64,000 nt of DNA, taken from Pedobacter sp. PLR (GTDB taxonomy: Bacteria; Bacteroidota; Bacteroidia; Sphingobacteriales; Sphingobacteriaceae). Positions 5,561 to 42,843 of the stretch are shown piece after piece (the stretch's first letter is position 1; each line of letters opens with the position of its first letter). A program made the position numbers and the translations under genes. Under the pieces are notes generated by a model. That model ran no database searches, was not told where the DNA came from, and saw only the letters and a program-made list of their open reading frames with translations. The stretch is taken from the NCBI RefSeq assembly GCF_026239675.1, contig NZ_JAPIVQ010000005.1:310001-374000 (forward strand), given 5' to 3'.

Positions 5561-6463
5561 TTAATTCCCGATTTTATTTATTTTTCGGTAAGCGACCGGC
5601 GACATCCCCATCACTTTATTAAAAATCCTTGAGAAATAATAAGGGTCTGAATACCCGATACCGGAAGCTATTACTTTTATCCGAAGATCTGATAAGGCTA
5701 AAAGCTGACAAGCTTTCTGTAGTTTCAATTGTATAAAATAGTCGATTGCCGATATCCCTGTTTTCTTTCTGAATAAATTCTGGAAATGGGAAACAGAATA
5801 AGAGAATTCAACAGCTAAATCTTCAACAGTCAGCTTTTTAGCCAAATTGGCTTTCATATAATCAATAATTTTATCTGTTAATTCCGGATTAGAAACAGAG
5901 ACCAATTCGGTGTTTTTCTTTGGAAATAGAAAATTAGCGATAAAATAATATAAGGTTAAATTAGCATAAATTAGATTTTCAGCACTATACCCATTTTCTA
6001 AGCTATTGTACATAATGTTCCAGAGCTTTATTTTGTGCTCATCAAAAGGGATTGTTTTGGGAGCTAGGAAGCTGCAGATGGAGAGGGAATCATTTAGGTC
6101 TGGTAATTTGCTCCCCGTAAAATGAACCCAGTAAATTGTCCAGGGATCAGCAGGGGATGATGAATATTGTACATGCTGATCGGTTGCCGGTATGATAAAA
6201 AATTCATTCGGCCCGACCTGATGTTGCGCTGTTCCAATACTAAATGAACCTTTGCCGTCTACACAATAAATAAGGATATTATCGGAACAACCTTTAGGCC
6301 TGTTCCGATAATGTCCTTCGGCTTTTGGGAAGTAGCCTATATGAGTAATGTATAATGAATTTAAGAAATTTCTGCTTTCACTATTACGTTCATGTATGAA
6401 TTTGGGTAAGCTAATTAGCTTTTCACCATTAAAGCCATCTTTCTTTTTTTTAGCTACTTTCAT
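5561..6463 (-). CDS. AraC-family transcriptional regulator (fucose locus)
   Basis: 300 residues. The N-terminal half is the cupin-like sugar-sensing domain of AraC proteins (GCSDNILIYCVDGKGSF, then FFIIPATDQHVQYSS). The C-terminal 100 residues hold two helix-turn-helix units (LTVEDLAVEFSYSVSHFQNLF and SGIGYSDPYYFSRIFNKVMG) ending PVAYRK. It is the last gene of the minus-strand fucose locus, about 75 bases after the SDR gene. The likely role is activation of this locus by L-fucose or a breakdown product. Known relatives activate sugar operons by binding direct repeats near the promoter. The inducer is inferred from context only. Confidence 0.88.
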   Translation of the reverse strand: MKVAKKKKDGFNGEKLISLPKFIHERNSESRNFLNSLYITHIGYFPKAEGHYRNRPKGCSDNILIYCVDGKGSFSIGTAQHQVGPNEFFIIPATDQHVQYSSSPADPWTIYWVHFTGSKLPDLNDSLSICSFLAPKTIPFDEHKIKLWNIMYNSLENGYSAENLIYANLTLYYFIANFLFPKKNTELVSVSNPELTDKIIDYMKANLAKKLTVEDLAVEFSYSVSHFQNLFRKKTGISAIDYFIQLKLQKACQLLALSDLRIKVIASGIGYSDPYYFSRIFNKVMGMSPVAYRKINKIGN

Positions 6464-6539
6464 ATCTCGTTATGATTCCTTTTTTTGCTGAAAATAGCAA
6501 AATAGTTTTTGAATCTCTGTGAATTAGAAGCGCAATAGG

Positions 6540-7310
6540 TTAGTAATTTCTTCTATACCCCAATTCTGCGCCACCGCTTACTGCTAATGTAGTCCCCGTG
6601 ATGAACCTCGCCTTATCCGAAAGAAGAAATACACAGGCATCCGCAATGGCATCTCCCTCCGGGCAATAGCCCAACGGATGGATGTCGTCCAGGTATTTTT
6701 CAATAGAACCAGAGTTGGGTTGTTCCTGACTCCATTTACGTAACATTGGGGTCCATACTCCGGCAGGCATCACTGCATTGACACGGATTTTGTCTTTTGC
6801 ATAATCCAATGCCATGGATTTGGTTAAAGCATTCATGCCTCCTTTTGTGGCCGTATAAGCGGCATGGTTCTCCTGGCCAATGTCGCCTACTAAGCTACTG
6901 GTATTGAGGATGCAACCCTTGCTTTTTTTGAGCGCTTCATAACCGAACCTGGTAGTCAGTAAAACGCTTTTTAAATTTACATTCATTAGGTTCTCCCATT
7001 CTTCGTCACTGGTTTCGTGCAAAGGTTTAGAAGGAGAGGCAATGCCTGCATTGTTGTGGATGGCGTCTATTCTGCCATATTTATCCAGGGTTTTCTGTAT
7101 GGCATTTTCTACTTGTGAAGCACTGGATACATTGCAGGTGATGCCCATATGTTTTGAGCCTAACATGGCTATGGCTGCTGCGACAGGCCCTGATGGATAG
7201 GCTGCGATGACTACAATAGCCCCTTCTTTTGCATAGCTTTTTGCGCATTCCAAACCAATACCCATGGATCCACCAGTGAGGAAAATAACTTTATCAGATA
7301 ATAATTGCAT
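6540..7310 (-). CDS. SDR dehydrogenase, probably for L-fucose or 2-keto-3-deoxy-L-fuconate
   Basis: 256 residues from the ATG at 7310. A longer frame to 7403 would overlap the upstream mutarotase gene and lacks homology-like sequence. Classical short-chain dehydrogenase features are present: TGGSMGIG nucleotide motif at 12-19, NNAG at 86-89, catalytic Ser around 138-139, and YTATK with Tyr152 and Lys156. It would oxidise a hydroxyl or sugar hemiacetal with NAD(P)+ in the cytoplasm. In oxidative fucose pathways, SDR enzymes carry out either the first step (L-fucose to fuconolactone) or the oxidation of 2-keto-3-deoxy-L-fuconate. The neighbours make one of these two likely, but the sequence does not choose between them. 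Confidence 0.85.
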   Translation of the reverse strand: MQLLSDKVIFLTGGSMGIGLECAKSYAKEGAIVVIAAYPSGPVAAAIAMLGSKHMGITCNVSSASQVENAIQKTLDKYGRIDAIHNNAGIASPSKPLHETSDEEWENLMNVNLKSVLLTTRFGYEALKKSKGCILNTSSLVGDIGQENHAAYTATKGGMNALTKSMALDYAKDKIRVNAVMPAGVWTPMLRKWSQEQPNSGSIEKYLDDIHPLGYCPEGDAIADACVFLLSDKARFITGTTLAVSGGAELGYRRNY

Positions 7311-7324
7311 GTGTTTTTGTATAC

Positions 7325-7741
7325 TTAATTTGTGTGGAAGACTTCCTCCATTGGGGTCCATATTTCGTGCTTTGCTGCAGCTTCCGGCAATGGTTGCTGA
7401 CAAGGGTCAGTTTCTTTCCACCAACGTTGTGTGTTGGGGTCAGCCGCCATCTTTTTCATGTCTCCATCAAAATCTGCTCCTGTATGTTCAAAATAGCTGA
7501 ACAGGTAATATTCGTTGTTTATTTTCTGGAGGTAAATGGAGTAGTTCTCGATATGACAGTCTTTTATTTTTTTCAAAACCTCCGGCCAGGCATTTGCATG
7601 CAATGCTTTATAGGCCTTCAGTTGATCAGCTTTTAATCCGGTTACCGAAGCAAAGCGTTTTACATCGTGGGTTTTGTTTTCTTTTTGGCAGCCGCACAGG
7701 AGAAATCCTGACAACAATACCATGATCATACTTAATTTCAT
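7325..7741 (-). CDS. RhaM-superfamily sugar mutarotase with lipoprotein signal
   Basis: 138 residues. After a hydrophobic leader with a possible lipobox (LLCGC, Cys18) comes a RhaM/YiiL-type mutarotase domain of about 105 residues. The family pattern is visible: Tyr44, His48 and Trp52 in YKALHANAW, then NYSIYLQKI, then the RWW pair at 106-108. These enzymes interconvert the alpha and beta anomers of 6-deoxy sugars. Here the neighbours make L-fucose the likely substrate. A typical RhaM is about 104 residues and cytoplasmic, so the export signal is unusual and would place this enzyme in the envelope, before uptake by the symporter. The next gene starts 3 bases upstream, so the two are co-transcribed. 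Confidence 0.85.
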   Translation of the reverse strand: MKLSMIMVLLSGFLLCGCQKENKTHDVKRFASVTGLKADQLKAYKALHANAWPEVLKKIKDCHIENYSIYLQKINNEYYLFSYFEHTGADFDGDMKKMAADPNTQRWWKETDPCQQPLPEAAAKHEIWTPMEEVFHTN

Positions 7742-7744
7742 TTT

Positions 7745-9388
7745 CTATCTGAATATATAATATAAGACACCCGTAACAGTTAGCAGGAGGGCAGAGAGTA
7801 CTTTGTAATTTCCAAGTCCTTTCCATGCCGGACCTTGTAGCGGCTCCCATGGCGTTTTCCAATATAGTTTGGAACTTTCTGAAGTATGTTGAACTGGATA
7901 TACATAAGAAAAAACAACCTGAATGACCACGCAGGTAATGAACAGGTAAAAAGCCATCATCATGAAAGGGATATGCCCAATCAGTGATTCAGGGAAAACT
8001 TTGTTAATGATAAATACAATTACTCCCAATGCGGAGCCAATCCAAAGGGTCAATTTTGCCGATGCAGCGGAAGCGCCTTTCCAAAAAACACCTAATAAAA
8101 ACACACAGGTAATAGGGGGTGCAATGTGGGCGATGATGTCATTGATTCCGCTGAAAATACTTTCATATCTATTGAGCAAAGGCAATAAGCCAAGAGAAAA
8201 CACCAGGGCAATTCCGGCGGCAATTTTCCCTATGCGGATCAGCTGTTTATCTGTCGCAGCAGGGCGGTAACGCTGATACATATCGTAACTGACCATGGTA
8301 GATATGGAGTTCAGCGCTCCCGAAACCTGACTCATCAATCCGGACAATAAAGCGGCAACGAGCACGCCCACCAATCCGGAAGGTAATAACTGGGTAATCA
8401 TCAAGGTATAAATCCCCTTTGAATTCACATTTCCTTTGTCATCTAAACCCAGACTGCTGATATCCAGATGTCCTGTTTTGGAAAGGGTATAGGCAAATAG
8501 TCCGGGCAAGACAAAGATGAAGACCGGTAATAATTTAATGAAACCACAAAACAGCGGCCCGATGCGGGCATGATTCTCATCTTTAGCGCCCAGTACCCGC
8601 TGCACAATTGTTTGATCTGCACACCAATACCAAATGCCCAAAATCGGGTAACCTAAAAATATGGTATACCAGGGCATTCCACTGCTATCGCCATGAGGAC
8701 GCAACATGGAAAGTTTATCCATCTGGTCATTTGCTTTAAGGACGTCGGTCATTGGTTCCCAGCCACCCATCTTTTGAAAAGCGGCATAGCTGATGATGAA
8801 AGCACCGGCAAGCAGTACCACCGTTTGAATAGACTCCGTAACCACCACCGCTTTTAATCCACCAATAATAGTGTATATCGCGGTAATGACGCAAATGACA
8901 ATGATGCTGACGTACATATTCAGTCCAAAAAGTGTTTTCAATACGATGCCTCCGGCCAGCATAGAAAAGGCAATATGGATAATGATCGCAGAAACGACAG
9001 AAATGATCGCAAGCCAATCCCGACTGGATCTATCGTACCGTTTTTCGAGGAAATCTGGCAGTGTTGCGACTCCGGATTTGATATAAAAGGGGACAAAGAA
9101 TAAAGAAAGCAGAATCAAGGTGAATGCAGCCATCCATTCAAAATTTCCATTGAGTAAACCGCTGTCAAAACCGCTTTGCGCCAGACTAACCAAATGCACG
9201 GTAGAGATGTTGGTGGCAAATAGTGCGAGTCCGATTGCAGGCCATTTTAAGGTTTTACCAGCCAGAAAATATTCACCGGCAGCATTTGCTTTGCTCTTGC
9301 GGCGATGACTGATTCCAGCCCAGAGACCCACAGCCAGAATGCCGAGAATGTATATAATGCTGATGCCTAAGTCGAGTGAATTTAACAT
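7745..9388 (-). CDS. SSS-family sodium/sugar symporter (fucose locus)
   Basis: 547 residues with about 13-14 hydrophobic segments. It has the SGLT-type signatures near the N-terminus (GEYFLAGKTLKWPAIGLALFA), the central GLKAVVVTESIQ region and the WYWCADQTIVQRVLGAKD segment. It would import a monosaccharide across the inner membrane using the Na+ gradient. It lies between the mutarotase (3-base gap) and the fuconate dehydratase (13-base gap), so L-fucose is the likely cargo. Specificity cannot be read from the sequence: SSS members also carry arabinose, galactose and N-acetylneuraminate. Confidence 0.88.
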   Translation of the reverse strand: MLNSLDLGISIIYILGILAVGLWAGISHRRKSKANAAGEYFLAGKTLKWPAIGLALFATNISTVHLVSLAQSGFDSGLLNGNFEWMAAFTLILLSLFFVPFYIKSGVATLPDFLEKRYDRSSRDWLAIISVVSAIIIHIAFSMLAGGIVLKTLFGLNMYVSIIVICVITAIYTIIGGLKAVVVTESIQTVVLLAGAFIISYAAFQKMGGWEPMTDVLKANDQMDKLSMLRPHGDSSGMPWYTIFLGYPILGIWYWCADQTIVQRVLGAKDENHARIGPLFCGFIKLLPVFIFVLPGLFAYTLSKTGHLDISSLGLDDKGNVNSKGIYTLMITQLLPSGLVGVLVAALLSGLMSQVSGALNSISTMVSYDMYQRYRPAATDKQLIRIGKIAAGIALVFSLGLLPLLNRYESIFSGINDIIAHIAPPITCVFLLGVFWKGASAASAKLTLWIGSALGVIVFIINKVFPESLIGHIPFMMMAFYLFITCVVIQVVFSYVYPVQHTSESSKLYWKTPWEPLQGPAWKGLGNYKVLSALLLTVTGVLYYIFR

Positions 9389-9401
9389 GTCGTTTTCCGG
9401 A

Positions 9402-10631
9402 TTAATTCAATGATTTTAAATCGCAGCTGCTTCCAGGTTCCATGGGAGTCTGATATACGCCACCTTCAATTTTGACAGGATGAACGAAATGTTGCTGTAA
9501 ATGCGGAATATGCTCCAGGAACAAGGCTTCATGGCCCATAGAAATGTGGTTAAACAAAACCAGGTGTTGGTGCAACTGCCCCATATCACCCACATGCGGA
9601 ACCACAGGGATATTGAATTTACGACAGAGCAAGCTGACCGTAATAAACTCACTGACACCACCCACGCGAACGGCATCAACCTGCATGAAGCCAGCAGATC
9701 CGGTTTGCAGATAATTCTTAAAAATAATGCGGTTAGGCACATGCTCTCCTAAAGCAAGCTTAGTAGGTGCAATGGCTTTTGCCAAAGTTGCATGAGCAAG
9801 GACATCATCAGGATGGGTAGGTTCCTCAATCCAGTAAGGGTTCATACTTTGTAATTCTTTACAGATCTTAATTGCTTGTGGTAAGGTCCATTGCTGGTTG
9901 GCATCCAACATCACTTTGATGTCTGCTCCGGCTACTTCGCGAACAATATGCGCCCTGCGAATGTCGCGCTCCGGATCAGTACTGCCTACTTTTAACTTCA
10001 TGGCAGTAAAACCTTCCGCTACCGCTTTCTTGCAGTTTTCACGGACTTTTTCATCGGGGTAATTAAACCAGCCAATAGAAGTGTCATACCCGGGATATCC
10101 CGCCTCAATAATACCAAGACGCTCAGATTTGCTGTTGATGTTGCTTTGCAATAAAACCAGGGCCTGTTCCCGTGTCAGTTCATCTTCCAGATAGGAGAGG
10201 TCCAAAGTATTCAGGATCTCCTGAGCGCTTAAGTCAGTCAGGAGTTTCCATAAAGGGACTCCTCTCTTTTTTGCCCATAAATCATAACAGGCATTCGTTA
10301 CTGAGGCTAGCGCGAGATGTACTACTCCTTTATGAGGACCCAGCCAGCGGAATTGTTGCTCATTAGAAAACTGATGGAAAACTGTACCAAAATCAGCCAT
10401 TAGCGCTTCAATATCTTTTCCTTTAAGTTGTTCCGCATAAAATGCCGCGGCTTTACAAACCAGGTCATTGCCTTCGCCCAGTGTAAAAGCGAAACCTGTA
10501 CCAATATGGCCACTGTCATCTATTAGATTGGTTACGGCATAAGAATAAATCGGGTCACGGTGAATGGCATCACTACCAGCACCTTTGCCCAGAGGGAATC
10601 GCGCGTCGTTAATTTGTATCTTCGTAATCAT
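9402..10631 (-). CDS. L-fuconate dehydratase (enolase superfamily)
   Basis: 409 residues, near the length of the characterised Xanthomonas FucD and human ENOSF1. It removes water from L-fuconate to give 2-keto-3-deoxy-L-fuconate. Residues of the mandelate-racemase subgroup are visible: Lys212 and Lys214 in MKLKVG, metal ligands Asp243 (MLDANQ), Glu269 (WIEEP) and Glu296 (LGEH), and the base His346 in PHVGDMGQ. The N-terminal part (FPLGKGAGSDAIHRDPIYSY) is typical of fuconate dehydratases. It acts in the cytoplasm and is the key evidence that this locus uses the non-phosphorylating fucose route rather than FucI/FucK/FucA. Confidence 0.9.
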   Translation of the reverse strand: MITKIQINDARFPLGKGAGSDAIHRDPIYSYAVTNLIDDSGHIGTGFAFTLGEGNDLVCKAAAFYAEQLKGKDIEALMADFGTVFHQFSNEQQFRWLGPHKGVVHLALASVTNACYDLWAKKRGVPLWKLLTDLSAQEILNTLDLSYLEDELTREQALVLLQSNINSKSERLGIIEAGYPGYDTSIGWFNYPDEKVRENCKKAVAEGFTAMKLKVGSTDPERDIRRAHIVREVAGADIKVMLDANQQWTLPQAIKICKELQSMNPYWIEEPTHPDDVLAHATLAKAIAPTKLALGEHVPNRIIFKNYLQTGSAGFMQVDAVRVGGVSEFITVSLLCRKFNIPVVPHVGDMGQLHQHLVLFNHISMGHEALFLEHIPHLQQHFVHPVKIEGGVYQTPMEPGSSCDLKSLN

Positions 10632-10646
10632 GGTTCAGGCTGTGGT

Positions 10647-11966
10647 TTAAGAGATTACAGGAAGTTTTTCTGCGTTTGTATTGAGCTCCAATACAATCAC
10701 TGAATCATCTGTATTCGGGAGTTGTTCAGGTAATTGAAGCGTAATGCTTCCGGCAGCATCCTGACGATGGTTGATTTTACCACCTTTTAACAAATAAGCC
10801 TTGTTAATTTTAACTCCTTTTAATGCAGGTAAGGTTAAATCAGCAGATTTTCTTTCAAAAACATGGACATAAAGCTTATTGCCTTTACGTGTGGTTGCAA
10901 AAACCTCAGTCGGTTTAAAAGGACCTCCTTTAGTGCCATAAACACTTTCACCATAGTTGTTTAACCAGTCGCCCATCTCTTTTAGTCTGTTGATCTGGCG
11001 CTGCTCGATTCTACCATCAGCCATCGGACCAACGTTAAACAATAGGTTTCCATTTCCTCCAGACGTTTTAGCCAAAGTCTGGATACACTCTTTTAATGTT
11101 TTTAGCTTGTCATTCGGTTTCCATGCCCATTGTTGACAAATGGTCATGCAAGTTTCCCATGGATTATTCATGTTCAGCTCCCCGATTTTTTGTTCCGGAG
11201 TAGCATAGTCTCCGAGAATTTCAGGACCCAATTTTGGGTGGCTACCAGGCTGGCCTCCGCCAATTCTATTGTTAATGATCACATCAGGATCTAATTTTTT
11301 AAGAAAAGTATAAATATCTGCCCCATACTCGTTTTTCCATGGACTTTCCCAATTGCCGTCAAACCAAAGCATATAAGGTTGATATTGGGTGACAATTTCC
11401 TGTAACTGGTTTTTCATGGTAGTCACAAATTTGGTCATATCGGCTTTTGGATCCGGGTTTTTTCCATCAGGGAGATGGATCGGATAATTGGGGTCATGCC
11501 AATCTAGTACGGTAAAGTAAACGCAAAATTTGATATCATACTTTTTACAGGCCTTAGCCAACTCACCCACAATATCTTTTTTGTAAGGAGAATTCATGAT
11601 GTTATAATCCGAGAATTTTGTCGGCCAAAGACAAAACCCATCGTGGTGTTTAGCAGTAATGGTTAGGTATTTCATCCCGGCATCTTTAGCTGTTTTTACC
11701 CAGGTTTCTGCATCAAATAAAACTGGATTAAACTCTTTATATAAATTGTCATATTCTTGCATTGGTACATTGGTGCCTCTGCTCCAGCCAATCTCTGTTC
11801 CACGTAAAGCCACCGGTCCCCAGTGGATAAACATGCCGAATCGCTGATCCATAAAGTCGTTTAAAACGGCTTCTGATGTTTTTACAGCTGGACTAACCGT
11901 TGCGGTCTGTGCATGGCTTCGATAAAACAAGGAAAGTAATACCAACAGGTTAAAAAGATACTTCAT
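10647..11966 (-). CDS. GH29 alpha-L-fucosidase, secreted
   Basis: 439 residues from the ATG at 11966, which gives a signal peptide (about 1-20, ending SHAQ). The frame runs on to 12095 but those 43 residues look non-coding. GH29 motifs are clear: FGMFIHWGP at 43-51, AKHHDGFCLW around 105-114, and the nucleophile Asp203 in YMLWFDGNW. It releases terminal alpha-linked L-fucose outside the cytoplasm, supplying sugar to the symporter and dehydratase downstream. It is the first gene of the minus-strand fucose unit, 15 bases before the dehydratase. About 200 bases of non-coding DNA upstream hold its promoter and the terminator of the aldo/keto reductase. Confidence 0.92.
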   Translation of the reverse strand: MKYLFNLLVLLSLFYRSHAQTATVSPAVKTSEAVLNDFMDQRFGMFIHWGPVALRGTEIGWSRGTNVPMQEYDNLYKEFNPVLFDAETWVKTAKDAGMKYLTITAKHHDGFCLWPTKFSDYNIMNSPYKKDIVGELAKACKKYDIKFCVYFTVLDWHDPNYPIHLPDGKNPDPKADMTKFVTTMKNQLQEIVTQYQPYMLWFDGNWESPWKNEYGADIYTFLKKLDPDVIINNRIGGGQPGSHPKLGPEILGDYATPEQKIGELNMNNPWETCMTICQQWAWKPNDKLKTLKECIQTLAKTSGGNGNLLFNVGPMADGRIEQRQINRLKEMGDWLNNYGESVYGTKGGPFKPTEVFATTRKGNKLYVHVFERKSADLTLPALKGVKINKAYLLKGGKINHRQDAAGSITLQLPEQLPNTDDSVIVLELNTNAEKLPVIS

Positions 11967-12105
11967 GGTGTTTCGGTTTATATTTGGTTTAAGAAAGACT
12001 AAATTATTGTCTTTATGCCTATCGAACAATGAATTATTCTTTGTTTTTGATGGATTATCATACGATTTGTATTGCAATCTGAAATATGAGCACATACAAA
12101 TAAAG

Positions 12106-12132
12106 CCCCCTCTTAAACATGTTAAAAGGAGG
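12106..12132 (-). terminator. Probable terminator of the aldo/keto reductase gene
   Basis: On the minus strand, 11 pairs (two of them G-T) form between 12122-12132 and 12106-12116, with a 5-base loop, followed by CTTTATTTG. It lies 35 bases after the reductase stop codon. The T run is weak. Confidence 0.45.
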
Positions 12133-12166
12133 TTCCTGTATTTTCAATGCGATTAGTTCATTTTGG

Positions 12167-13563
<1,397 letters not shown>

Positions 13564-27891: not shown

Positions 27892-28671
27892 TTAAAGTGT
27901 GGCTACACCAATTCTTTCTTCGATCTTTTTGGCACATTTTTTAACTTCCAGCAGGATTTCATCATTGTTCATTTCCTGATTTACATTTAAGGCCGTCAGA
28001 CTGGAAACAGTCAGGCAGGCAATAATTCCGGTATTACTGATCCCAATCGGGACAGATACATCAATTACGCCATTCGCAAGATCACTGTTTCTTAGGTCAG
28101 CGCCTTTGGATTGTATTTCCAACAAGGAGTTTAGAAAGTTTTTCTTTTCCTGATCCGGATAGGCCATATAGATTGGATAGCCGCTCAGTGCAATTTCGCG
28201 TTCAGAATTTTGCATATAACTCAGGAAGACCCTTCCGGAAGCTGTTAATGGGAGTGGGAATAAATTACCCTCCTCAATAGACAAGGCAATTGGTCCCGGA
28301 CTCTTGGCATGAATAATCACCATGATCTGGTTCATATATAAGATACTAAGGTGGCAGGATTGTCTTATCTTATTCGCTAGCTCTTCCAATGGATACTGTG
28401 CCGCTTTACGCAATTCATCAACAGGAGAGTGTCTGTGTGAAAGGTAAAAGAGTTTTAAGGAAAGCCTGTATTTGCCCGAAACCTCATCTCTTAGAATATA
28501 CCCGCGACTTTCTAAACTCATCAACATCCGGTAAATTTCATTCGGGCTTTTATCAAGACCCGTAGCAATCTCAGTCTGAGAAAGGGGGATGGATTGAGCG
28601 GAGAGGTGTTCTAGAATATCAAGGCCTTTGTCCAGTGCCGGAGCCTGATATTTAATTTCTTTATCCTTCAT
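27892..28671 (-). CDS. IclR-family transcriptional regulator
   Basis: 259 residues from the ATG at 28671. A start at 28701 would add ten residues of unclear value. The N-terminal winged helix (GLDILEHLSAQSIPLSQTEIA, then SPNEIYRMLMSLESRGYI) is followed by the IclR effector domain (CHLSILYMNQIMVIIHAKS, then LTASGRVFLSYM and DVSVPIGI). It diverges from the 35-kb carbohydrate operon with 215 bases between start codons, and is the only regulator next to it. IclR proteins often sense aromatic or sugar-acid breakdown products, for example KDG-type compounds in pectin-degrading bacteria (KdgR). That makes it a plausible controller of the operon. Confidence 0.88.
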   Translation of the reverse strand: MKDKEIKYQAPALDKGLDILEHLSAQSIPLSQTEIATGLDKSPNEIYRMLMSLESRGYILRDEVSGKYRLSLKLFYLSHRHSPVDELRKAAQYPLEELANKIRQSCHLSILYMNQIMVIIHAKSPGPIALSIEEGNLFPLPLTASGRVFLSYMQNSEREIALSGYPIYMAYPDQEKKNFLNSLLEIQSKGADLRNSDLANGVIDVSVPIGISNTGIIACLTVSSLTALNVNQEMNNDEILLEVKKCAKKIEERIGVATL

Positions 28672-28788
28672 GCAAACTAAATCTGGTTTTTTTATAAACA
28701 AACATACTAAATGGTTTCAATACCCCATTCTTCGAAATGGAGTGTAAATGTTACCTAAATATATGTTTTCATATTTGAAATAAATATT

Positions 28789-32794: not shown

Positions 32795-35215
32795 ATGATG
32801 TTAAAAAAGAACCTGGTATTGCTTTTATTGATGATGATTGTTGGTTTTAATGCCAGCAGTCAATCTCGTATTCATGAAAGTTTTAATCCGGGATGGCGCT
32901 TTTTTCCGGGAGATGATGCCGCGGCTAAATCGCCGGACTTTAACGATTCCAGCTGGCGAAAGTTGAATTTGCCGCATGACTGGAGCATTGAGGGGAAGTT
33001 TGATATCAAGAATCCTGCAAAACCGGAAGGTGGAGGTTTGCCTACAGGCATTGCCTGGTACAGGAAATCTTTTGTGCTGCCTAAGACTTTTCAAAAGAAG
33101 AAAGTACATATAGAATTTGATGGGGTGTATAAGAACAGTGAAGTTTGGATTAATGGCCATTGGCTGGGTAAACGCCCTTATGGCTATATCGCTTTCCGAT
33201 ATGAACTGACAAAATATTTAAAACCGGGTAAGAATGTAATTGCCGTACGCGTAGATAATTCTGCACAACCTGATTCGCGCTGGTATTCCGGGTCTGGCAT
33301 CTATAGAAATGTGTGGTTAACCGCTACCCAAAATATTGCGATAGACCATTGGGGTACAACGGTAAGCACGCCAAAGGTTAGTAAAACTGCGGCAGAGCTT
33401 AGCTTTAAAACCAGAATCCGCAGCCCGAAAAATGGAAAAGAGCAGGTTGATTTACTGTCGAAAGTATATGATGGAAAAGGGAATCTGGTGGCTGAAGTCA
33501 GGACAAACGATGTTTTATTGAAAGATACCCTGACGGAAATCGCGCAGCTGGTAACGGTGAAAAACCCGCAATTATGGTCGGTAAAACAGCCTGACCTTTA
33601 TAAAGTCGTAACACAGGTGTTTGCGAATAAACGATTGTCTGATGATTATGAAACCACATTTGGGATTCGCTATTTTAATTTTGATGCCCAAAAAGGCTTT
33701 TCGCTAAACGGCGAATACCTAAAGATCTTAGGGGTGTGTATGCACCATGATCTGGGAGCTTTAGGCGCGGCAACCAATCTGAGGGCAATGGAACGCCAGT
33801 TGGAAATATTAAAAGAAATGGGCTGTAATGCAATCCGCACCGCGCACAATCCACCTGCCGCAGAGTTCCTTGACCTTTGCGATAAAATGGGCTTTTTGGT
33901 GATGGATGAGGCCTTTGACATGTGGAAGAAGAAGAAAAATGCTAAAGATTACCACTTAAACTGGGAAGAATGGCATGTTGCCGATTTGCAGGATATGGTG
34001 AAACGAGACAGAAATCACCCTTCTATCATACTATGGAGCATCGGAAACGAAATTCGGGAGCAGTTCGACAGTTCAGGAGTCGCGATGACGAAAGAACTGG
34101 TGAAACTGGTAAAAGATCTGGATACGACTCGTTTGGTGCTTTCGGCATTGACAGAAACAGACCCTAAAAAGAATTTCATTTATCAGGCTGGTGTACTGGA
34201 TATGTACGGGCTTAATTACAACCATAAGCAGTATAAAGATTTTCCGAAAAACTATCCGGGGCAGAAGTTTCTGGCCACAGAAACCACTTCTTCTTTAGAC
34301 ACCCGCGGTTTTTATGAAATGCCATCAGACAGTATTCGCCGCTGGCCAAAAGATGGTAAAACCAAATTTACTGAAGGCAATGCCGAATTTGCAGCTTCTT
34401 CCTACGATAACGTTTCTGCTTACTGGGGCTCTACACATGAGGAAACCTGGAAGGAAGCAAAAAAATATGACCACGTTTCTGGATTGTTCGTATGGACAGG
34501 ATTTGATTATTTAGGTGAGCCATTGCCTTATCCATGGCCGGCAAGGAGTTCTTATTTCGGGATTGTGGATTTAGCAGGTTTCCCTAAGGATGCCTATTAT
34601 ATGTACCAAAGCGAGTGGACCAATAAGCCGGTATTACATGTGTTCCCACATTGGAACTGGACACCAGGAAAAACGGTTGATGTATGGGCCTATTACAACA
34701 ATGCCGATGAGGTAGAACTATTCCTTAATGGGAAATCATTAGGCAAAAGATCAAAACAGGGAGAAGACCTTCATGTGGTATGGAAAGTGAAATATGAACC
34801 CGGTACGATAAAAGCCATTTCCAGAAAAGATGGTAAAACCGTATTGGAAAAAGAAATCAGCACCGCAGGGAAGGCTGCAAAAATAGAACTGTTAGCAGAT
34901 CGGAATGAAATTGCTGCCGATGGTAAGGACCTTTCTTTTGTCACCGTAAGGATTTTAGATGCGCAGGGAAATGTACTGCCGGATGCAGATCACCTGGTTC
35001 AGTTTAAACTGGAAGGTGAGGGCACAATTGCAGGGGTCGATAATGGATTTCAGGCCAGCCTGGAACCTTTTAAAGCCGATTACAGAAAAGCTTACCGCGG
35101 ACTTTGTCTGGCAATTATCCAGGCAAAGAATAAAGCCGGGACATTAAAATTAACCGCAACAGCTGCCGGACTGCAATCATCAGCAATTTCCATCAGTGTA
35201 AAAGCAATAAAATAA
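32795..35215 (+). CDS. GH2 beta-galactosidase-like enzyme, secreted
   Basis: 806 residues with a signal peptide to about residue 23. GH2 layout: jelly-roll domain (LPHDWSIEGKF, GVYKNSEVWINGHWLGKRPYG), Ig-like domain, TIM barrel, then DUF4982-type and C-terminal Ig domains (VWAYYNNADEVELFLNGKSL, then DGKDLSFVTVRILDAQGN). Catalytic residues are visible: acid/base Glu419 in LWSIGNE and probable nucleophile Glu496 in LATETTS. CMHHDLGALG and IRTAHNPP are typical of beta-galactosidases of this group. It would remove beta-linked galactose (or glucuronate) from side chains outside the cytoplasm. It ends 6 bases before the cytoplasmic module. Confidence 0.9.
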   Translation: MMLKKNLVLLLLMMIVGFNASSQSRIHESFNPGWRFFPGDDAAAKSPDFNDSSWRKLNLPHDWSIEGKFDIKNPAKPEGGGLPTGIAWYRKSFVLPKTFQKKKVHIEFDGVYKNSEVWINGHWLGKRPYGYIAFRYELTKYLKPGKNVIAVRVDNSAQPDSRWYSGSGIYRNVWLTATQNIAIDHWGTTVSTPKVSKTAAELSFKTRIRSPKNGKEQVDLLSKVYDGKGNLVAEVRTNDVLLKDTLTEIAQLVTVKNPQLWSVKQPDLYKVVTQVFANKRLSDDYETTFGIRYFNFDAQKGFSLNGEYLKILGVCMHHDLGALGAATNLRAMERQLEILKEMGCNAIRTAHNPPAAEFLDLCDKMGFLVMDEAFDMWKKKKNAKDYHLNWEEWHVADLQDMVKRDRNHPSIILWSIGNEIREQFDSSGVAMTKELVKLVKDLDTTRLVLSALTETDPKKNFIYQAGVLDMYGLNYNHKQYKDFPKNYPGQKFLATETTSSLDTRGFYEMPSDSIRRWPKDGKTKFTEGNAEFAASSYDNVSAYWGSTHEETWKEAKKYDHVSGLFVWTGFDYLGEPLPYPWPARSSYFGIVDLAGFPKDAYYMYQSEWTNKPVLHVFPHWNWTPGKTVDVWAYYNNADEVELFLNGKSLGKRSKQGEDLHVVWKVKYEPGTIKAISRKDGKTVLEKEISTAGKAAKIELLADRNEIAADGKDLSFVTVRILDAQGNVLPDADHLVQFKLEGEGTIAGVDNGFQASLEPFKADYRKAYRGLCLAIIQAKNKAGTLKLTATAAGLQSSAISISVKAIK

Positions 35216-35221
35216 AAGGTT

Positions 35222-36382
35222 ATGATCGATAAAATTAGTTTAAAAGGAATAACATGGAATCATAGCCGGGGATTTGTCCCAATGGTCGCTACCGCACAGC
35301 GGTTTTCGGAATTAAATCCATCAGTAGAAATTACCTGGGAAAAAAGAAGCTTACAGCAGTTCGCTGATTTCTCGATACAGGAGCTTGCACAACGCTTTGA
35401 TTTATTAGTGATAGATCACCCATGGGCAGGTTTTGCAGCTAAAACACAGTCTATTTTGCCTTTGGATAAGTATCTTTCCAAAGCGTATTTAGCCGATCAA
35501 AGAGAAAACAGCGTAGGCCATTCCTATGAAAGTTATGGGTACCAGGGCCATCAATGGGCATTACCGATTGATGCGGCTACACCAGTAGCCTCCAGCAGGC
35601 CGGATCTATTGGAAAAGCATGGTTATTCCTTGCCCAAAACATTTGCTGATTTATTAAATCTGGCAGATAAAGGGCTGGTTGCTTTTGCAGGGATTCCAAT
35701 TGATGTGCTGATGAATTTTTATACTTTTTGCTGCTCTTTGGGAGAAGATCCCTGTCAGCAGGAAGAGCAGATTGTATCTCCCGAAACAGGTATTAAAGCG
35801 TTAAAAATGTACCGCGAACTGGCCTCGAAAATTGACGCTGAGAACTTTAACAGAAACCCGATTCAGGTGTATGAAGCGATGACGCTGAGCGATGATATCG
35901 CTTATTGTCCTTTTGCTTATGGTTACTCCAATTATTCGAGAAATGGATATGCCCGTAAACTGTTGCATTTTCATGATATGATCACCCTGGATGGCCGTAA
36001 TAATTTGCGCAGCACACTAGGAGGTACAGGATTGGCGGTATCTTCAAGTTCAGAACACCTGAACATCGCCCTGAAATATGCGGAGTATGTAGCCTCAGGT
36101 TCTTGTCAGCAAACTGTTTTCTTCGAAAACGGAGGGCAGCCCGGTCATTTGGATGCCTGGAAAGATGTAGCCGTAAATCGTAAATCCAGCAATTTCTTTA
36201 GCAATACTTTACCTGCTTTACAACGTGCTTTCCTTCGTCCGCGTTACCATGGACATATGTTCTTTCAGGACCATGCCGGAGATATTGTAAGGGATTACCT
36301 GATGAATGGAGGAGAGGAATCCGCAGTGCTGGAAGAAATGAATAAATTATATGTTGAATCAAGAAGCTTGCAGTTATCATGA
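35222..36382 (+). CDS. Family-1 solute-binding-like protein without export signal (A)
   Basis: 386 residues, two-lobed periplasmic-binding-protein fold by pattern (VEITWEKRSLQQF, FDLLVIDHPWAG, HQWALPIDAATPVASSRPDLL, YAEYVASGSCQQTVF). There is no signal peptide: the protein begins MIDKISLKGITWNHSRG, and the GH2 stop lies 6 bases upstream, so no longer start is possible. It should therefore be cytoplasmic, unlike normal ABC-transporter binding proteins. No ABC permease or ATPase is in the window. The last 4 bases overlap the first CoA-transferase gene, so it is translationally coupled to it. Possible roles are binding or delivering a small acid or sugar to the CoA-transferase, or sensing it. 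Function unknown. Confidence 0.8.
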   Translation: MIDKISLKGITWNHSRGFVPMVATAQRFSELNPSVEITWEKRSLQQFADFSIQELAQRFDLLVIDHPWAGFAAKTQSILPLDKYLSKAYLADQRENSVGHSYESYGYQGHQWALPIDAATPVASSRPDLLEKHGYSLPKTFADLLNLADKGLVAFAGIPIDVLMNFYTFCCSLGEDPCQQEEQIVSPETGIKALKMYRELASKIDAENFNRNPIQVYEAMTLSDDIAYCPFAYGYSNYSRNGYARKLLHFHDMITLDGRNNLRSTLGGTGLAVSSSSEHLNIALKYAEYVASGSCQQTVFFENGGQPGHLDAWKDVAVNRKSSNFFSNTLPALQRAFLRPRYHGHMFFQDHAGDIVRDYLMNGGEESAVLEEMNKLYVESRSLQLS

Positions 36383-37530
36383 GAAAACCGCTGGAAGGAA
36401 TCGTAGTTTTAGAATTTTGCCAGTTTCTTGCCGGCCCATCCGCAGGCTTAAAACTAGCCGATCTTGGTGCCCGTGTGATTAAAATTGAACGCCCCGGTAA
36501 AGGAGATGCCTGCAGGCAATTGGCCATAAAAAACCTGTTTATTGAAGAAGATAGCTTGCTTTTCCATACCATCAACCGCAATAAAGAATCTTATGCGGCG
36601 GATTTGAAGAACCCGGAAGACTTGAAACTGATACAGCAGTTGATTGCCAAAGCGGATATCATGACGCATAATTTCAGACCGGGAGTCATGGAAAAAATAG
36701 GGCTGGACTATCCGGCTGTTCAAACCTTAAACCCTAAAATTATATATGCCACAGTAACCGGTTACGGCAATGAAGGCCCCTGGGTTAATAAACCCGGACA
36801 GGATCTGCTGATCCAGTCTGTTTCTGGCATGAGTTATTTAACAGGCAGCAAGGAAGACGGACCAGTTCCTTTTGGATTATCCGTTACCGATATTATGTGC
36901 GGGAACCACCTGACACAAGGAATTATCGCGGCATTGATTAAGCGTGCGAAAACAAATAAAAGTGTGCTGGTAGAAGTCAGCTTGCTGGAGTCCGCATTGG
37001 ATGTGCAGTTTGAGGTGCTGACTACCTACTTAAATGATGGCGGACAATTGCCGGAAAGAAGTGCGGTAAAAGGTAGTGCACATGCTTACCTGAGTGCTCC
37101 ATACAGTACCTATGAAACCAGCGAGGGCTATATTGCCCTGGCCATGGGTGATTTGAAAACGATAGCTGAGCTGATCGGTTGTGACATTTCACCGGCCTAT
37201 ACCAATCCTGCTGATTCATTCGAAAACAGGGATGAACTCTTGCTGTTGCTTGGACAAAAGTTCAGGGAAAACACCAGTCAGCATTGGTTGGGCTTACTGG
37301 AATCAAAGGATATCTGGTGTGCCCCGGTACTGGATTATAAAGCAGCAACAGATTTGGACGTATTTAAAAATATGGAAATACGCCAGCAACTTGATCTGGG
37401 AAATGGCAGCAGCTTATACACCACCAGAATCCCGATGCAGATTGACGGACAGAAGCTGTTTGCCAGAAAGGCTGCGCCAAAAATTGGTGCCGATAACGAT
37501 AGGATTAATTTAGAATTTGAATTAAAATAA
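36379..37530 (+). CDS. CaiB/BaiF family (class III) CoA-transferase A
   Basis: 383 residues. Class III CoA-transferase features: the N-terminal stretch [33 protein letters not shown], the NRNKESYAADLKNPE segment, [15 protein letters not shown] and GQDLLIQSVSG. The likely catalytic Asp171 lies in SVTDIMCG; in this class an Asp forms the acyl and CoA intermediates. It would move CoA between carboxylic acids in the cytoplasm. Its ATG overlaps the solute-binding-like gene by 4 bases. A second, similar copy follows after 3 bases. Such enzymes are not a usual part of polysaccharide loci. The acid substrate is unknown. Confidence 0.9.
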   Translation: MRKPLEGIVVLEFCQFLAGPSAGLKLADLGARVIKIERPGKGDACRQLAIKNLFIEEDSLLFHTINRNKESYAADLKNPEDLKLIQQLIAKADIMTHNFRPGVMEKIGLDYPAVQTLNPKIIYATVTGYGNEGPWVNKPGQDLLIQSVSGMSYLTGSKEDGPVPFGLSVTDIMCGNHLTQGIIAALIKRAKTNKSVLVEVSLLESALDVQFEVLTTYLNDGGQLPERSAVKGSAHAYLSAPYSTYETSEGYIALAMGDLKTIAELIGCDISPAYTNPADSFENRDELLLLLGQKFRENTSQHWLGLLESKDIWCAPVLDYKAATDLDVFKNMEIRQQLDLGNGSSLYTTRIPMQIDGQKLFARKAAPKIGADNDRINLEFELK

Positions 37531-37533
37531 GAT

Positions 37534-38703
37534 ATGAAACCTCTGGAAGATTATTTAGTGGTAGATTTTAGTCAGTTTTTGTCTGGCCCTTCAGCGAGTT
37601 TGAGGCTGGCTGATATGGGCGCAAGGGTGATTAAAATTGAACGTTCAGGAGTTGGCGATATTTGTCGCAGTTTGTACACTTCTAATGTGATCATGAACGG
37701 GGAATCTTCAGTTTTCCATGCGATAAACCGGAATAAGGAAAGCTTTGAGGTAGACTTAAAGAATCCGGAAGATTGTAAAATGGTGCGGGAGCTATTGGCG
37801 AAGGCCGATGTGATGATGCACAATTTTCGTCCGGGAGTGATGGAAAGACTGGGCTTCGATTATGCATCTGTGCAAGAGCTCAATAAGGATATCATCTATG
37901 CCTCGCTCTCTGGTTACGGCGTTGAAGGAAAGGGAAAGGGTAAGCCTGGTCAGGATTTATTGCTGCAATCGGTTACCGGATTAACCTGGTTAAGCGGAAA
38001 TGCCGATAGCGGCCCCGTAGCAATGGGCTTATCGATTGTGGATATGCTTGCCGGTTCTCACCTGGCTCAGGGTATTTTAGCCTGTTTATTCCGTAAGGCA
38101 ATAAGTGGTGAAGGAGGCAGGGTAGAGGTGAGTATGATAGAATCTGCCTACGATTTCCAGTTTGAAACGATTACAACCTTTATGAATGATGGCGGAGCAC
38201 TTCCGGAACGTACGGCAAAGAACAATGCAAACGCGTATTTAGGCGCTCCTTATGGCATTTATAAAACTGCAAATGGTTTTGTGAGCCTGGCGATGGGCTC
38301 TGTTCCTGTCCTCGCCGTTTTGCTGGAATGTGAAGCACTGCAAGCTTTTACAGATCCGGCGGAAGCATTTACCAAACGTGATGAAATAAAAACGATTTTA
38401 GCGGAGCACCTGCTCAGTAGAGATACGGCTTGTTGGCTGGGTGTTTTAGAACCTGCTGACATTTGGTGTGCGGATGTATTAAACTGGCAGCAATTGATGG
38501 AGCATGATGGGTTTAAAGCTTTAGCTATGATTCAGGAGGTAGAAATGAAGGATGGTTATCAATACCAGACGACCAGATGTCCGATAAGAATTGATGGAGA
38601 ACTGTTAACTTCAGCCAAAGGTTCTCCTAAATTAGGGCAGGACAATGAAGAGATCATTAACCAGTTTGTAAACCTAAAAACAGGCATCCATGAGTCACAA
38701 TGA
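37534..38703 (+). CDS. CaiB/BaiF family (class III) CoA-transferase B
   Basis: 389 residues, colinear with the gene before it along its whole length (for example [65 protein letters not shown]). The likely catalytic Asp170 is kept in SIVDMLAG, so both copies may be active. They are plainly paralogues that have diverged, which suggests different substrates or a mixed complex. These enzymes normally work as interlocked dimers, so a heterodimer is conceivable. The 3' end overlaps the second solute-binding-like gene by 14 bases. Confidence 0.9.
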
Positions 38704-41526: not shown

Positions 41527-42843
41527 ATGAACCACAGCACAACAGAGGAATTAACCATCCCGGCAGCTGCAGCTATTCGTAGTGAAGCAGCGCAAACAAC
41601 CAGCAAGGAATATTTAGTGCCATTTATTTTGGTCGTGAGCTTGTTCTTTTTATGGGGAATGGCACACAACCTGGATTCTATCCTGATCCCTCATTTGAAG
41701 AAAGCCTGCGATTTGAATAACCGCCAGTCTACGCTAATAGATACTTCAGTCTTTCTGGCTTATTTTTTAATGGCCATTCCAGCAGGGATGATCCTTAAAA
41801 AATGGGGATATAAAGCAAGTATGATTATTGGATTACTGGTGTTTGCTATTGGCGCATTCTTATTTGTGCCGGCAGCCAATCAATTGTCGTATGTTACTTT
41901 TCTGATTGCCTTGTTCATTATTGGTTGTGGATTAACCATATTAGAAACTTCAGCAAATCCATACGCCGCAGTTTTAGGAGATCCGGAAAAAGCGACCAGC
42001 AGGTTAAATCTTGCGGCCTCTTTCAATGGTCTGGCTGCTATGGTTGCGCCATTTATCGGCTCGATGTTTATCCTTTCCGGTAAATCTCATACCCCGGAAG
42101 AACTAAGTGCGATGACAGATGTAGCGCGTTCCAGCTATTTTCTGGAAGAAGCGGCTTCGGTAAAGATGCCTTACATCGTTCTGGGTACAGTATTGGTGAT
42201 TATGGCCATCATCATTTATTTTGTGAACCTTCCGGAGATAAAAACCAAAAGTAAAGATGGTGTTGCTAAAGGCAGTTTTTTTGGTGCATTACGTCATAAG
42301 CACCTGAGGTGGGCGGTAGTTGCGCAGTTTTTCTATGTTGGTGCGCAAGTTTGTGTCACTAGTTTTTTTATCAGAATGGCGCAGCAAGGTGCCGGATTTG
42401 ATGAGAAAACTGCCGCCTATTATCTGGCCATTTATGGTTTGTTATTCATGGCAGGCCGTTTTGCGGGAACCGCAATTCTACAGGTGATTGCTTCTCATAA
42501 ATTATTAGCGCTTTATGCAGGGATAGCCGTTTTCCTATGCCTGATCGCTATTCTTGGTCAGGGAACCTATGTGGTGTATGCGTTGGGAGCCATCGGGTTT
42601 TTTATGTCGATCATGTTCCCTACCATTTTTGCGCTTGGAATTGATGGCATTGGCGATGATACCAAACCGGGATCTTCCTGGTTAATTATGTCCATTGTTG
42701 GTGGTGCAATCCTGCCTTATGGCATGGGTACTATGATTGATTTAAACGGAGATAATATTCAGATTGGTTACAGTATCCCATTGGTGTGTTTTCTCATCAT
42801 CTTATTTTTTGGGCTTAAAGGGTATAAGATTGCCGCTAAATAA
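41527..42843 (+). CDS. FucP-like sugar MFS transporter
   Basis: 438 residues with 12 hydrophobic segments. Family sequence matches the fucose:H+ symporter group: LFFLWGMAHNLDSILIPHLKK in helix 1, MAIPAGMILKKWGYKASM, and GCGLTILETSANPYAAVLG with the conserved Glu and Asn. The second half has VTSFFIRMAQQGAGFDEK and SIMFPTIFALGIDG. It imports a sugar or a related compound with protons. It follows the MaoC gene after 54 bases and precedes the GH106 rhamnosidase. Its cargo may be rhamnose, fucose, or the compound handled by the CoA module. Confidence 0.9.
   Translation: MNHSTTEELTIPAAAAIRSEAAQTTSKEYLVPFILVVSLFFLWGMAHNLDSILIPHLKKACDLNNRQSTLIDTSVFLAYFLMAIPAGMILKKWGYKASMIIGLLVFAIGAFLFVPAANQLSYVTFLIALFIIGCGLTILETSANPYAAVLGDPEKATSRLNLAASFNGLAAMVAPFIGSMFILSGKSHTPEELSAMTDVARSSYFLEEAASVKMPYIVLGTVLVIMAIIIYFVNLPEIKTKSKDGVAKGSFFGALRHKHLRWAVVAQFFYVGAQVCVTSFFIRMAQQGAGFDEKTAAYYLAIYGLLFMAGRFAGTAILQVIASHKLLALYAGIAVFLCLIAILGQGTYVVYALGAIGFFMSIMFPTIFALGIDGIGDDTKPGSSWLIMSIVGGAILPYGMGTMIDLNGDNIQIGYSIPLVCFLIILFFGLKGYKIAAK

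Follow-up and report, generated by a model that had tools for sequence, protein, structure and literature searches.

The window, that is, the whole 64,000-nucleotide stretch of Pedobacter sp. PLR DNA analysed here, carries an operon in which the genes for SBP-A, CoA-transferase A, CoA-transferase B, SBP-B, a Gfo/Idh/MocA oxidoreductase (Gfo), a MaoC-type protein (MaoC) and a FucP-type symporter follow one another in this order (Table 1). The symporter is the probable importer for this cassette. The IclR-type gene accompanies the cassette in many loci of Bacteroidota, as it does in Ensifer and Labrenzia. The surrounding DNA is a pectin-type locus, with GH78, GH137-like, GH106, GH28, GH88 and GH95 proteins and an esterase. 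The frame at 31655-32779 matches the NCBIfam beta-D-glucuronidase/beta-L-arabinofuranosidase model over its first quarter only (512 bits); the matched quarter appears to be its GH137-type part, which suggests a rhamnogalacturonan-II-like target for the locus. In Pedobacter insulae, a GH78 rhamnosidase and a GH137-like protein are fused in one frame of 1279 aa (L037:3636-7472). Additionally, about 22 kb upstream of the cassette, positions 5561-13150 of the window form a second locus, with AraC, SDR, an SSF transporter, an enolase-type dehydratase, a GH29-type fucosidase and an aldo-keto reductase.

Table 1. Positions of the cassette genes and of other features of the window.
Feature	Position	Strand	Basis
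SSF transporters	7745 and 21408		domain/family match
Second MFS transporter	15678		domain/family match
IclR-type regulator, divergent	27892-28701	-	Pfam IclR_C 1.6e-18
SBP-A, leaderless SBP_bac_1 protein, 386 aa	35222-36382	+	ORF, Pfam, homologue starts, AlphaFold2 model
ATGA, 4 bases shared by the stop of SBP-A and the start of CoA-transferase A	36379-36382	+	
CoA-transferase A, family III	36379-37530	+	Pfam CoA_transf_3 1.9e-92, full length
CoA-transferase B, family III, paralogue of A	37534-38703	+	Pfam CoA_transf_3 2.8e-90, full length
SBP-B, second leaderless SBP_bac_1 protein, 411 aa	38690-39925	+	Pfam 4.9e-27
Gfo/Idh/MocA oxidoreductase, 370 aa	39930-41042	+	Pfam 2.3e-13
MaoC-type hydratase/dehydratase, 146 aa	41032-41472	+	Pfam 5.4e-21
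FucP-type L-fucose:H+ symporter (MFS)	41527-42843	+	TIGR00885 fucP 373.6 bits, cut-off 280.4

The nearest solved relatives of CoA-transferase A, with which it was aligned, are the formyl-CoA and succinate-hydroxymethylglutarate (SUGCT) CoA-transferases, and it also matches benzylsuccinate CoA-transferase (PDB 9fn0). Its residue D171 is invariant among the 17 aligned members, and the aspartate, which we take to be catalytic as in other family III enzymes, is kept in both transferases. By their domain and this aspartate, CoA-transferases A and B are family III CoA-transferases, for which CoA-transfer activity is predicted. The SBP-B gene overlaps that of CoA-transferase B by 14 bases, and the SBP-B homologues of the Bacteroidota loci likewise have leaderless starts. 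SBP-B and the transporter SBP of the Ensifer fucose locus, which has a leader, are 27% identical. The best PDB match of MaoC is 4ffu (E 1e-58), and PaaZ (6jql) was also matched; 4ffu is listed merely as 'oxidase' and may be a ready-made structure for the cassette MaoC.

We then considered the start of SBP-A. The open reading frame begins at an ATG, and the TAA stop codon of the preceding GH2 gene (35213-35215) lies in the same frame, six bases 5' of it. SBP-A could therefore be extended upstream by two residues only (K and V), and a longer start is impossible. In the AlphaFold2 model the first strand already occupies residues 5-11, and the motif LKGITWNH(S/T)RG lies within a few residues of the start in all 80 Bacteroidota homologues, none of which has a leader. 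Neither a Sec leader nor a lipobox was found in SBP-A by frame, by fold or by an N-terminal hydropathy scan against transporter SBPs. Hydropathy alone is insufficient as a signal-peptide test, as two cytoplasmic controls, CoA-transferase A and Gfo, likewise exceed a score of 2 on account of their first strands; the case for an absent leader thus rests on the frame and fold arguments. These bear out the view of the first-pass annotation, that SBP-A has no signal peptide and that its start is boxed in by GH2, and the location of the protein looks cytoplasmic.

SBP-A matches Pfam SBP_bac_1 (2.8e-10) and SBP_bac_8 (1.7e-8). Its AlphaFold2 model, calculated from an alignment of 48 homologues, presents a full two-lobed SBP fold (pLDDT 91.8, pTM 0.88), so that the binding-protein fold assumed earlier holds at the level of structure prediction. 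The closest structure is the MalE3 protein of T. maritima (6dtq, TM 0.82), and VIA-align gave Z scores up to 37.8 with an rmsd of 2.9 over 370 aligned residues. The CUT1 sugar-binding proteins, namely MalE3, the T. litoralis trehalose/maltose-binding protein and SmoF, resemble SBP-A in fold over the full length and, distantly, in sequence. SBP-A differs from the trehalose/maltose-binding protein by GGT in place of GGW and by IDAA in place of YIDA. Unlike them, SBP-A has no leader or lipobox, no permease and no ATPase, and has a fixed CoA-transferase partner instead. The alignment of 18 members contains 44 invariant columns; the motifs TWxHxRG, DHP, WALxIDAA, GGQPGH and RPR are strongly conserved over 31-79% identity, and the polar or charged residues H14, R16, D65, H66, D117, R339 and R341 are invariant across phyla.

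The absence of a transport partner was then followed through the genome. Its 5.8 Mb encode no SBP_bac_1 protein besides SBP-A and SBP-B. The BPD_transp_1 domain occurs in seven places, and the corresponding permeases, typed by their neighbour genes in our own reading of the sequence rather than by curated assignment, look like permeases of the Dpp type, of the betaine type (two of them), MetI and PstC/PstA. No CUT1-type ABC permease was found among the BPD_transp_1 proteins of the genome typed in this way, nor was any MalF/MalG-like CUT1 permease ORF present in the flanks of the 80 Bacteroidota loci. The permeases are thus of apparent peptide, betaine, methionine and phosphate type, and the search revealed no ABC importer for sugars to which SBP-A could belong. 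The earlier statement that no permease or ATPase exists in the 64 kb stands as regards the ABC partner; it does not extend to transporters of other kinds, since FucP-type MFS, SSF and further MFS transporters are present in the window. SBP-A has the fold and the SBP_bac_1 match of an ABC solute-binding protein, but it fails two of the tests that define one, the export signal and the cognate permease/ATPase.

In a scan of 84,980 species genomes, 261 relatives were matched and 80 loci were kept; these belong to Pedobacter, Mucilaginibacter, Hymenobacter, Olivibacter, Flavobacterium and other genera. In a sample of 296 Bacteroidota genomes, SBP-A is present in 16. The core gene order is intact in nearly all full-length loci, whether flanking glycosidases are present or not. 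CoA-transferase A adjoins SBP-A on the same strand in 79 of the 80 loci, and the 4-base overlap with the CoA-transferase gene, reported for the window by the first-pass annotation and found there as ATGA, recurs in 54 of these 79 adjacent pairs. The sole exception to the adjacency is a Hymenobacteraceae MAG, in which an open frame of 1068 aa separates SBP-A from the fused CoA-transferase (L055:3127-6330). In the same way, SBP-B adjoins CoA-transferase B in 78/78 loci. CoA-transferases A and B form one open frame with a variable linker, 791-835 aa from the likely start, in 11 Hymenobacteraceae loci (L043, L044, L049, L051, L052, L053, L055, L056, L057, L067 and L069), and these fusions support contact between A and B. 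A structure model of a natural A-B fusion was of low confidence (pLDDT 56.5, pTM 0.45, 13 sequences) and was not used. No fusion of an SBP with a CoA-transferase was seen among the collected loci. The arrangement around SBP-A is conserved throughout the family and is no isolated oddity.

The same couple was found in other phyla, in a sample drawn from plasmid records only. The order is reversed relative to Bacteroidota, CoA-transferase first and SBP second, in Alpha- and Betaproteobacteria and in Streptomyces (Sinorhizobium, Ensifer, Labrenzia, Thalassospira, Variovorax, Streptomyces and Methylobacterium), and it is SBP-first in Croceibacterium. In Sinorhizobium meliloti 1021 the SBP lies on pSymB, at about 732456-733580 of NC_003078. 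Most of the couples outside Bacteroidota show the 4-base overlap, with short gaps in Sinorhizobium K101 and Methylobacterium, and the paired SBPs are 31-41% identical to the SBP-A of the window. Between Pedobacter and Ensifer, identity reaches 68% for MaoC (68% also with Labrenzia), about 50% for the CoA-transferase and 48% for Gfo. At seven loci (Ensifer, Croceibacterium, Halostagnicola, Labrenzia, Thalassospira, Variovorax and Sinorhizobium K101) the nearby SBP of a genuine ABC transporter carries a hydrophobic leader, whereas the paired SBP has none. A haloarchaeal locus holds a relative of SBP-B (37% identical) together with a CoA-transferase, MaoC, Gfo, a mutarotase and an alpha-L-fucosidase. 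In a tree of 30 rows, the transferase-linked SBPs lie on one side of a branch with a support of 100/100; this split alone was used, because several of the transporter rows sit on long branches. In the Streptomyces, Variovorax and Sinorhizobium K101 loci a crotonase-type enoyl-CoA hydratase replaces MaoC and the couple is unchanged. A second type of CoA-transferase-SBP locus (L104, L107 and L109) contains a crotonase-type enoyl-CoA hydratase in place of MaoC, and a DUF4432 or aldose-epimerase protein.

Neighbouring genes link the cassette with L-fucose-type catabolism. In Ensifer and Labrenzia, the annotated neighbours are IclR, an amidohydrolase, a mutarotase, an SDR, a FAH hydrolase and L-fuconate dehydratase. 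The Flavobacterium cassettes diverge from genes that encode an L-fucose dehydrogenase (354 bits, above the NCBIfam cut-off), a fuconolactonase-like protein (268 bits, below it), a GH141 protein with a fused RhaM mutarotase domain, a Zn alcohol dehydrogenase and, at three of the four loci read, a 2,4-didehydro-3-deoxy-L-rhamnonate hydrolase-like (FAH) protein. The Pedobacter genome itself bears, on another contig (G000:C43:13456-22400, L121), a canonical oxidative L-fucose operon with alpha-L-fucosidase, FucP, RhaM, an altronate-type (UxaA-like) dehydratase, an SDR, a FAH hydrolase, a lactonase and fucose dehydrogenase. The neighbours that the cassette has in common with the oxidative, non-phosphorylating L-fucose pathway are L-fucose dehydrogenase, fuconolactonase, the FAH-type diketo-acid hydrolase, the mutarotase and FucP. 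The Flavobacterium loci match the canonical Pedobacter operon in their kinds of gene apart from the dehydratase: no enolase-, IlvD- or altronate-type dehydratase was seen at them, and they have both SBPs, both CoA-transferases, Gfo and MaoC instead. Across genomes, L-fucose dehydrogenase is present in 14/16 with the cassette and in 29/280 others (Fisher p 2e-11, uncorrected and confounded by shared ancestry). The partner genes, together with L-fucose dehydrogenase, fuconolactonase and the FAH hydrolase, connect the cassette with 6-deoxyhexose catabolism. The absence of RhaA is uninformative on a role in rhamnose use, as it is absent from 24/24 tested genomes, 8 of them without the cassette.

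The dehydratase missing from the locus can be present elsewhere in the genome. Altronate-type dehydratases occur away from the cassette in most cassette genomes, including G170, G025 and G222; a second IlvD/EDD-type protein is found in G202, G222, G182 and G286, and a 424-aa enolase-type protein in G021. A genome-wide absence of fuconate dehydratase was therefore dropped as proof of replacement. In Ensifer and Labrenzia, L-fuconate dehydratase is encoded at the cassette locus itself, so that the cassette is there no simple replacement for it. Since dehydratases are kept in Ensifer, Labrenzia and other cassette genomes, fuconate itself may not be the substrate, but rather a variant form of it such as methylated fuconate.

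A working partnership with the CoA-transferase is the best-supported claim that the sequences allow for SBP-A. The pairing of SBP and CoA-transferase genes is well supported; a physical complex, its ligand, the reaction and the roles of Gfo and SBP-B are what we infer. The gene overlap, common in bacterial operons, by itself indicates co-translation and is no proof of binding. Among the roles offered by the first-pass annotation, substrate carrier, subunit or sensor, that of subunit accounts best for the conserved leaderless start, the adjacency and the recurrence of the pair across phyla, whereas the sensor lacks an output domain. Our reading is that SBP-A is a cytoplasmic substrate-binding partner of the CoA-transferase pair which, together with MaoC, would dehydrate a fuconate-like sugar acid as its CoA thioester, and we give it about an even chance of being right.

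Family III CoA-transferases move CoA between carboxylic acids via an aspartyl intermediate, and MaoC proteins can remove the 3-hydroxyl of a 3-hydroxyacyl-CoA. The operon of the window encodes two couples: SBP-A goes with CoA-transferase A, and SBP-B with CoA-transferase B. Judging from the natural A-B fusions, the two transferases probably form a heterodimer, and with the two SBPs they would make a heterotetramer or a larger assembly. The acid that the SBPs would hold and offer to the transferase is proposed to be L-fuconate or a closely related 6-deoxy-sugar acid, and the transferase would convert it to the sugar-acyl-CoA. MaoC would then eliminate water from this thioester, giving a 2-keto-3-deoxy acid after tautomerisation, and the transferase would hand the CoA to the next acid, a catalytic use of CoA like that of carnitine dehydration by CaiB/CaiD. 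The product would join the 2-keto-3-deoxy-acid branch of the oxidative fucose pathway. That crotonase-type hydratases adjoin the couple in Streptomyces, Variovorax and Sinorhizobium K101 is in keeping with a hydratase role.

Gene content is what suggests such a CoA-dependent dehydration. In the CaiB/CaiD (carnitine) and FldA/FldBC (phenyllactate) systems, a family III CoA-transferase and a separate (de)hydratase carry out dehydration with recycling of CoA. They resemble the cassette in having a transferase and a separate hydratase that act on CoA thioesters, but are not known to contain an SBP-fold partner, and the hydratase of the cassette is a MaoC or crotonase protein in a sugar locus. Benzylsuccinate CoA-transferase is a family III enzyme of two different subunits and hence a precedent for an A-B heterodimer; in contrast with the cassette, its substrate is aromatic and it has no SBP. 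We propose more tentatively, and as a rather doubtful extension, a hitherto undescribed multi-subunit system in which a 6-deoxy-sugar acid, perhaps O-methylated, is brought by cytoplasmic SBP-fold proteins to a heterodimeric family III CoA-transferase, and MaoC dehydrates or demethylates the CoA thioester. It would be an alternative to the metal-dependent sugar-acid dehydratases, common to Bacteroidota, Proteobacteria, Actinomycetota and haloarchaea.

The couple may also be real and act on a substrate other than fuconate, such as a deoxysugar acid that bears O-methyl or acyl groups and is released from the side chains of pectin, or a carboxylic acid from later in the pathway. This is possible, though we think it improbable on balance. 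The pectin-type setting of the window and the standard-type dehydratase retained besides the cassette in Flavobacterium and Ensifer genomes speak for it, as does the resemblance of the cassette MaoC to the PaaZ domain, which opens an enol ether; against it counts that nothing points directly to any particular modified sugar.

SBP folds have become enzymes in THI5 and in MqnA/MqnD, and SBP-A might likewise act, for example, on a sugar acid, a lactone or an acyl-CoA. The seven invariant polar or charged residues exceed the strict needs of a binder, but they are equally explicable as a pocket tuned to an anionic ligand. Catalytic residues could not be assigned in SBP-A and the catalytic families for the expected chemistry are already in the cassette, and we judge such a conversion unlikely. 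The Pfam and NCBIfam matches include neither THI5 nor MqnA/MqnD.

Slightly less likely still is a purely regulatory role, in which SBP-A would sense a ligand in the cytoplasm or act as an allosteric regulator, reporting the pathway metabolite to the transferase or to IclR and standing outside catalysis. SgrR and other regulators use SBP domains as intracellular sensors, and the IclR gene is linked to the cassette as described above. In SgrR-like regulators, however, a DNA-binding domain is joined to the SBP domain, whereas Pfam shows the SBP domain alone in the 386 aa of SBP-A, without a DNA-binding or other output domain; moreover, the constant neighbour is the CoA-transferase, and some couples lie beside LacI genes without IclR. 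That SBP-A is what remains of an ABC uptake system in decay, preserved by operon inertia or exported non-classically, is very improbable: it belongs by sequence to the ABC sugar-binding proteins, and the identity of SBP-B with the Ensifer transporter SBP makes an ancestral uptake link plausible, but SBP-A is open, leaderless and strongly conserved in every lineage examined, as its invariant columns attest, and Proteobacteria have a complete ABC transporter with its own SBP alongside.

The substrate-binding partner of a CoA-transferase pair, our preferred reading of SBP-A, adds to the first-pass annotation both the link to L-fucose-type catabolism and the recurrence across phyla, which come from the present analysis. 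The full-text literature, the coverage of which was partial, yielded no account of a CoA-transferase paired with a leaderless SBP, and this absence is weak evidence. In public records such proteins bear the label 'extracellular solute-binding protein' or 'ABC transporter substrate-binding protein', which looks wrong as to location and is probably wrong as to function. If the pairing is physical, it would represent a new use of the binding-protein fold, the presentation of a substrate to an enzyme, and would add a CoA-thioester route to sugar catabolism. It would also correct the annotation of a family of soil, plant-associated and marine bacteria, together with an archaeal relative.
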